This document shows positions 17,601 through 18,308 of a stretch of DNA of 64,000 nucleotides, one piece after another. The DNA is from Brachyhypopomus gauderio (taxonomy: Eukaryota > Chordata > Actinopteri > Gymnotiformes > Hypopomidae): positions 26,599,915 to 26,663,914 of the forward strand of contig NC_135212.1 in assembly GCF_052324685.1 (NCBI RefSeq). The letters are read 5' to 3'. The number at the start of each line of letters is the position of its first letter. The stretch's first letter is position 1. The translations under genes and the position numbers were made by a program. The notes beneath the pieces were generated by a model. That model worked only from the letters and a program-made list of their open reading frames with translations. It did no database searches and was not told the DNA's origin.

Positions 17601-18308
17601 ACATTTCTCCAGGGCATGCAACACTAGGAACAATCTAAAATAAAAAAATATATATCCTCCAAAATTTGTTATGAGAACAGCTAGGCAAAGGTGACCAAAG
17701 TACCTGCAGGGAAGCTAAGCGAGCACCCTCCAGCGGTTTATCTGGGTCCACCTTGACTTCACTGGTCTTGCTGAAGACATCTAACCTTACTATCTTATTG
17801 CAGGCCCCCTCTGCTCCCTGAAGATACATGAATAAACAAACGAAAGGGAGTTCAGAAACAGGTCCCTTACTTTCATAGTGTTAAAGCGCGCCTGCTCCTG
17901 TGGTCTGTCTGGGTTCACCTTCACCACCCTGCTGGACCTGAACTCGGGCAGCTCCAGCAGCCTGTTGCAGCTGTGCGCACCTGTCTGTCTGCCACAACAC
18001 ACACACACGTCCATATCTGACAGCACGGTGACTTTCAGCCAGCATATCTGCACAGTACCCTTGCAAAGCAAGTTCAATGTCTACCTTAAAATTTGGAATC
18101 CTGTGGTGAACTGGCCGTGGAAAATTCGCCAGATTTTTCTCCTCGATGTAATCCCACACCCTTTGCCGAATGTCCCATTTCGTCGCCCCTTAAATACACA
18201 AAAAAATAAAACGGGGTTGCACTGTGGCTTGAGAACGACATACGCAGAAACACCGTACACGTTGATCAGGACTCGGTTACCTGCATGAATAACTATGGTA
18301 TGTTCCAT
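14687..18308 (-). CDS. mthfsd: MTHFS-domain containing RNA-binding protein
   Basis: This is a methenyltetrahydrofolate synthetase domain containing protein: an N-terminal domain related to 5-formyl-THF cyclo-ligase plus a C-terminal RRM; the mammalian protein binds RNA. Minus-strand exons are 18281-18308, 18085-18188, then 17871-17984 and/or 17704-17817 (homologous, see separate entries), 17399-17512, 17170-17260, 16969-17081, 16448-16573 and 14687-15208. All have AG/GT borders and matching phases. With one of the duplicated exons the protein is 403 aa (human 383). Diagnostic motifs are [42 protein letters not shown] (active-site-like loop), VVTIVHDCQ and [12 protein letters not shown]. The RRM lies near residues 320-390, from GTLYLGGIP through [14 protein letters not shown]. 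The last exon is much more GC-rich than its surroundings. The start [10 protein letters not shown] precedes [14 protein letters not shown]. Confidence 0.95.
16111..16242. repeat. Compound (AC)/(CATA)/(TA)/(GA) microsatellite
   Basis: Four simple motifs follow one another within mthfsd intron 7 (15209-16447), ending in about 16 GA units. The rest of that intron shows nothing distinctive except a GC-richer patch at about 15700-15790. Confidence 0.97.
17704..17817 (-). other. mthfsd: mthfsd duplicated exon, copy B
   Basis: This 114-nt, 38-codon, phase-0 exon reads [18 protein letters not shown] through [15 protein letters not shown]. The acceptor is TATCTTCAG| and the donor |GTACTT. It is the copy resembling the human exon ([14 protein letters not shown]). 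The intron separating it from copy A is 53 nt (17818-17870), with a TGAAC branch-point candidate only about 20 nt from the copy A donor. Confidence 0.9.
17871..17984 (-). other. mthfsd: mthfsd duplicated exon, copy A
   Basis: This 114-nt, 38-codon, phase-0 exon reads [18 protein letters not shown] through [15 protein letters not shown]. The acceptor is GGCAGACAG| and the donor |GTAAGG. It is the copy nearer the mthfsd start. Its VNPDRPQ core looks closer to bacterial and archaeal cyclo-ligase-like sequences as I recall them. It aligns without gaps to copy B, with 13 of 38 identities. Confidence 0.88.

Follow-up and report, generated by a model that had tools for sequence, protein, structure and literature searches.

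Two adjacent, homologous exons of the mthfsd gene of Brachyhypopomus gauderio, designated A and B here, most likely arose by an ancient tandem exon duplication and are spliced in a mutually exclusive fashion, a reading to which we assign a probability of roughly 0.8. Exon 2 would be spliced to one of the two, which would in turn be spliced to exon 4. The two predicted products, each of 403 residues, differ in a single helix-helix-strand-helix unit, 38 residues long, within the cyclo-ligase-like domain. At the RNA level, exclusivity would be enforced mainly by the location of the exon B branch point within ~50 nt of the exon A donor, as this short span should not allow A to be joined efficiently to B. 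The reading frame is unable to enforce exclusivity because both exons are 114 nt in length; in the gene model, the frame comprises 404 codons including the stop with either exon alone, and it also stays open with A and B together (442 codons including the stop) or with both skipped (366).

The gene was modelled within a 64,000-nt stretch of genomic DNA, referred to as the window (Table 1). We take it to be mthfsd on the basis of its domain order and the human MTHFSD protein. The N-terminal part of the product matches the 5-formyltetrahydrofolate cyclo-ligase-like domain (PF01812; 94.8 bits for full-length isoform B, cut-off 27), and an RRM_1 match to residues 353-386 near the C terminus falls short of its threshold (16.1 vs 20.7 bits). 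Neither isoform reaches the cut-off of 84.9 bits for the canonical MTHFS equivalog TIGR02727 of NCBIfam (A, 35.6 bits; B, 34.5 bits), and the alignment to this model covers only the C-terminal part of both. In a PDB sequence search with the mthfsd protein, MTHFS was matched weakly; a profile of the prokaryotic homologues matched better.

Table 1. Features of mthfsd in the window.
Feature	Position	Strand	Basis or remark
mthfsd gene	18308 to 14687	minus	modelled exons 1, 2, A, B, 4, 5, 6, 7, 8; GT-AG borders
Exon 1, coding part with ATG	18281..18308	minus	gene model, GT-AG, single frame
Exon 2	18085..18188	minus	gene model; 3' border AAG/GTAGAC, phase 0
GU-rich tract preceding exon A, where a good polypyrimidine tract would be expected	17992..18008	minus	sequence reading
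Exon A acceptor region with three CAGs in tandem	17981..17990	minus	gene model
Exon A, 38 codons, NPDRPQ core	17871..17984	minus	gene model; prokaryote-profile match 2.7e-10
A-B intron, 53 nt	17818..17870	minus	gene model
Exon B, 38 codons, DPDKPL core	17704..17817	minus	gene model; prokaryote-profile match 8e-5
Exon 4 (LLVPTPRLR)	17399..17512	minus	gene model
Exon 5	17170..17260	minus	gene model
Exon 6	16969..17081	minus	gene model
Exon 7	16448..16573	minus	gene model
Exon 8, C-terminal RRM-like region and stop	14687..15208	minus	gene model; RRM_1 E 0.011, below cut-off

The preliminary description had proposed a pair of 38-codon, phase-0 exons, alignable without gaps at 13/38 identities, separated by a 53-nt intron and bearing VNPDRPQ and VDPDKPL cores, and the gene model and alignment confirm each of these points, with NPDRPQ found in A and DPDKPL in B. 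Both exons are open, and they are interchangeable in frame. At 23 positions the two segments score positively, and their BLOSUM62 score of 68 was reached by none of 100000 shuffles of A. The 64-kb window contains 492 stretches of the form AG-[114 nt]-GT, of which 80 are open; leaving aside A and B, the highest score among them is -4 against B and 1 against A. Furthermore, a segment profile built from prokaryotic proteins alone, searched against the 2749 open frames of the window, recovered A and B with the best-domain E-values listed in Table 1 (37.6 and 20.1 bits, respectively), followed by a next match at 0.84. From the shuffle test, the stretch count and the prokaryotic profile together, A and B are, as judged from sequence, real coding copies of the same protein segment. 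They also share residues that are rare in prokaryotes, namely Cys6 (7/136 homologues), Asn7 (5/136), Ala32 (5/136) and Glu30 (0/80), which would fit a duplication within the animal line and not two separate sources. The proposal of an old tandem duplication with both copies coding, rather than a recent accident, is supported.

None of the 136 prokaryotic homologues examined shows two copies of this segment, in keeping with one copy per protein. The length of the aligned segment is 38 residues in every one of them, and the segment profile matches once in 130 of them, twice in none and not at all in 6 divergent members. Eighty of these proteins ranked highest among 211 in similarity to an isoform A query, which gives the set a slight A-like lean, and the segment profile was built from these 80 alone. 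The other 56 came from profile searches, with 20 weaker or second copies picked by hand; 61 loci were read, of which 5 duplicated members of the 80 and were dropped. The profile searches, at 1e-30, matched 7/299, 2/299 and 124/200 genomes, and loci were taken from the best matches only. Over the 244-residue domain part, PF01812 scores 103.4 bits with A, 96.7 with B, 91.7 with both and 81.6 with neither, although isoform B exceeds the double-inclusion product by the small difference of just 5 bits. In the predicted model of an archaeal homologue (L010, mean pLDDT 96.2), the segment corresponds to residues 34-71 and consists of helices 35-43 and 46-50, a strand at 53-56, which is followed by the NPD loop, and a helix at 60-71, stopping before the next strand; the nearest solved folds are of the MTHFS type (1ydm, 2jcb, 3hy6 and 3hy3). 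A doubled or missing segment would be expected to disturb this predicted fold. Based on the single-copy homologues, the correspondence of the segment to one structural unit and the higher Pfam scores of the single-exon products, mutually exclusive use is the best reading.

The exchange of A for B would alter a conserved core. The NPDxPQ core of A is that usual in prokaryotes, and B departs from it by Asn to Asp and Gln to Leu. Thus, A keeps Asn24, present in 119/136 homologues, and Gln29, present in 123/136, while B has Asp24 (0/136) and Leu29 (7/136); Asp26 and Arg33, found in 136/136, are retained by both exons. Among the 17 homologues without Asn24, 12 are hand-picked divergent copies, i.e. 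lower scorers or second copies, as are 11 of the 13 without Gln29. When the profile is aligned to 1ydm, an E-I-P-T stretch of the latter has its Glu opposite Asp26 and its Thr opposite Gln29, and we take this Glu to contact the pterin in MTHFS. Raw identity to the 80 prokaryotic proteins favors A in 53 cases, with 13 ties and 14 in which A is behind, whereas the start of the segment (GA..A) and a Leu near its end are better kept, relative to prokaryotes, in B than in A. Because A keeps the prokaryote-typical NPDxPQ and B has DPDxPL, we infer that the two isoforms would differ in ligand handling. A more specific and tentative proposal, one that we hold at somewhat below even odds, is that exon choice exchanges the ligand core of an otherwise cryptic enzyme, A carrying NPDxPQ...R and B, with its Asp and Leu, serving another ligand or no catalysis. 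A parallel exists in some archaea, for example in genome G636, in which one paralogue (L107) has NPDSPQ and a second (L139) has TPDNNL; such whole-gene paralogues differ at the same two positions, so that mthfsd would accomplish within one gene what takes a pair of genes there. Ten more hand-picked copies within the series L131-L141 also depart from NPDxPQ.

How might joining of A to B be avoided? The intron between them, at 53 nt, contrasts with the other seven mthfsd introns (88-1239 nt); in the neighboring gene upstream of mthfsd on the same strand (window ~22866-19300, minus strand), which encodes a coiled-coil protein that we take to be gas8/drc4-like, eight introns measure 102-433 nt (nine were tried, and one of the eight uses a doubtful GC donor). 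Against exclusive use, some vertebrate introns of ~43-65 nt are known to splice. Of three branch-point candidates recognized, two match yUnAy in full, TTTAT with its A at 17833 (+38, 15 nt from exon B) and TTCAT with its A at 17829 (+42, 11 nt from exon B); the third, CTGAA with its A at 17852 (+19, 34 nt from exon B), is imperfect. The suggestion that the intron holds a sole good branch point ~20 nt from the donor is therefore borne out only to the extent that a candidate is present at +19; because this candidate is imperfect and those at +38 and +42 lie close to the acceptor, calling it the only good one is a judgement, and we regard it as a fair guess rather than a fact. All three candidates lie less than 50 nt from the exon A donor, within the donor-to-branch-point distance (<50 bp) treated as potential steric interference in the pertinent passage of Hatje et al. 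(PMC5740500). Since an intron of 53 nt leaves no room for a branch point distant from the donor of A, a branch-point block of A-B joining is plausible.

A variant of the preferred reading, which we consider rather unlikely, attributes exclusivity not to branch-point spacing but to a trans-acting repressor or a competing RNA structure. The GU-rich tract before exon A would suit such a repressor, and tracts of this kind are the sort of site bound by TDP-43 or CELF proteins. A review cites an ALS study for the regulation of MTHFSD by TDP43 (PMC10835012), and 484 of the 629 MXE clusters considered in the cited section of Hatje et al. were left to other mechanisms (PMC5740500). Yet the four inverted-repeat pairs (9-25 nt) found in the region of this single sequence include none resembling a docking site, and spacing alone should already disfavor A-B joining.

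The acceptor of exon A bears on a second alternative, that A is a relic no longer productively spliced in B. gauderio and that B is the working exon. The preliminary description credited both exons with proper AG and GT borders; both are indeed so bordered, but the acceptor of A is not clean, being the middle one of three competing CAGs spaced 4 nt apart (AGs at 17989-17990, 17985-17986 and 17981-17982), of which only the middle AG keeps the frame while the outer two lead to a stop inside the exon. With a GU-rich tract where a polypyrimidine tract should be, and two of three CAGs breaking the frame, exon A might be little used, poorly spliced or decaying in this species, and the loss from A of the GA..A start and AL end of the segment, largely kept in B, points in the same direction. 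Nevertheless, A remains open over its 38 codons, possesses a GTAAGG donor, keeps the N, P, D, P, Q and R of the core, and is the better of the two matches to the prokaryotic profile. Were the duplication of the age that the human MTHFSD reference segment suggests, an unused copy should also have eroded; that segment is presumably of the B type (25/38 with B and 11/38 with A) and is to be taken as a lead. On balance, we judge the relic reading of exon A to be improbable. Still less probable is inclusion of both exons in a 441-residue protein bearing the segment twice, for which the maintained frame speaks, and against which stand the 38-residue segment and the lack of a double profile match among the 136 homologues, the presence of a strand within the segment, a Pfam score below that of either single isoform and the length of the intron.

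Retrocopies, sought as fossil mRNAs in the 796.5 Mb genome of the same species, were not among the best candidates: the search gave seven matches, all within mthfsd itself, and none was an intronless copy. PF01812 also had two matches on another contig of this genome, presumably reflecting a separate MTHFS gene. A single scan of viral contigs found no relative, and genome contigs scanned with fish-only patterns yielded none. Elsewhere in the window, exon-like open frames were seen on the minus strand at ~46882-46481 and 46396-46283, which we take to resemble parts of a gene for a mitochondrial protease of the AFG3/paraplegin type.

MTHFSD and the prokaryotic homologues presumably belong to the COG0212 5-formyltetrahydrofolate cyclo-ligase-like paralogues. 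In common with this group is the MTHFS-like fold of the modelled homologue, whereas the core is fixed in any given prokaryotic gene and mthfsd would offer two by splicing, together with an RRM-like tail. The paralogues are treated in PMC4120688, PMC3223725 and PMC5041015, and a passage in the second of these describes a plant COG0212 protein as linked to thiamine salvage and not a 5-FCL enzyme (PMC3223725). Thiamin genes were absent among 10 neighbors of 8 prokaryotic loci chosen from 14 listed, a small sample. Polyprenyl synthetase and UbiA prenyltransferase genes occur near archaeal homologues at 2 of the 8 loci (L013:2714-3874 and L030:286-1188). Passages of the literature on MTHFSD treat it as an RNA-binding protein that is altered in ALS, and those passages ascribe no activity to its cyclo-ligase-like domain. 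Within main-text passages that name MTHFSD, we found no account of the A/B pair, which may well figure, however, in the lists of tandem duplicated exons published for human. In favor of mutual exclusion, a human event, MTHFSD-102413-ME (ME, mutually exclusive exons), is listed with its exons unnamed in a stomach-cancer study on TCGA SpliceSeq (PMC7443856); it shares with the present pair the gene family and the mutually exclusive listing, and exon numbers are absent from that passage. In the corresponding part of another paper, a skipped-exon event of MTHFSD is listed instead (PMC8116631).

The proposed arrangement has counterparts in several known systems. In alpha-tropomyosin, the branch point lies far upstream of the acceptor in a longer intron, while in mthfsd the whole intron amounts to 53 nt; the two would be alike in having a donor-to-branch-point span too short for both exons to be joined. 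For exons 4a and 4b of OGDH, the intron between them is reported to have its branch points close to its donor (PMC7969005), a proximity that in mthfsd is a necessity. More broadly, human annotation comprises 236 tandem duplicated exon substitutions, and over 90% of these have orthologues in bony fish, according to the portion of PMC9741552 that deals with them. Like these substitutions and OGDH 4a/4b, the mthfsd exons are adjacent, homologous, equal in length and phase, specific for the same structural unit, and old. Unlike the substitutions described in those passages, the mthfsd change strikes a core that hardly varies across the main group of homologues, and the pair is predicted from genomic sequence. 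Presence of both exons in other vertebrates would mean that the swap has been maintained since before the fish-tetrapod split. The A/B pair of mthfsd most likely joins an established class of tandem duplicated exons, and what makes it of interest is the core affected by the swap: isoforms differing at a near-invariant core would offer a direct handle on what the cyclo-ligase-like domain binds.
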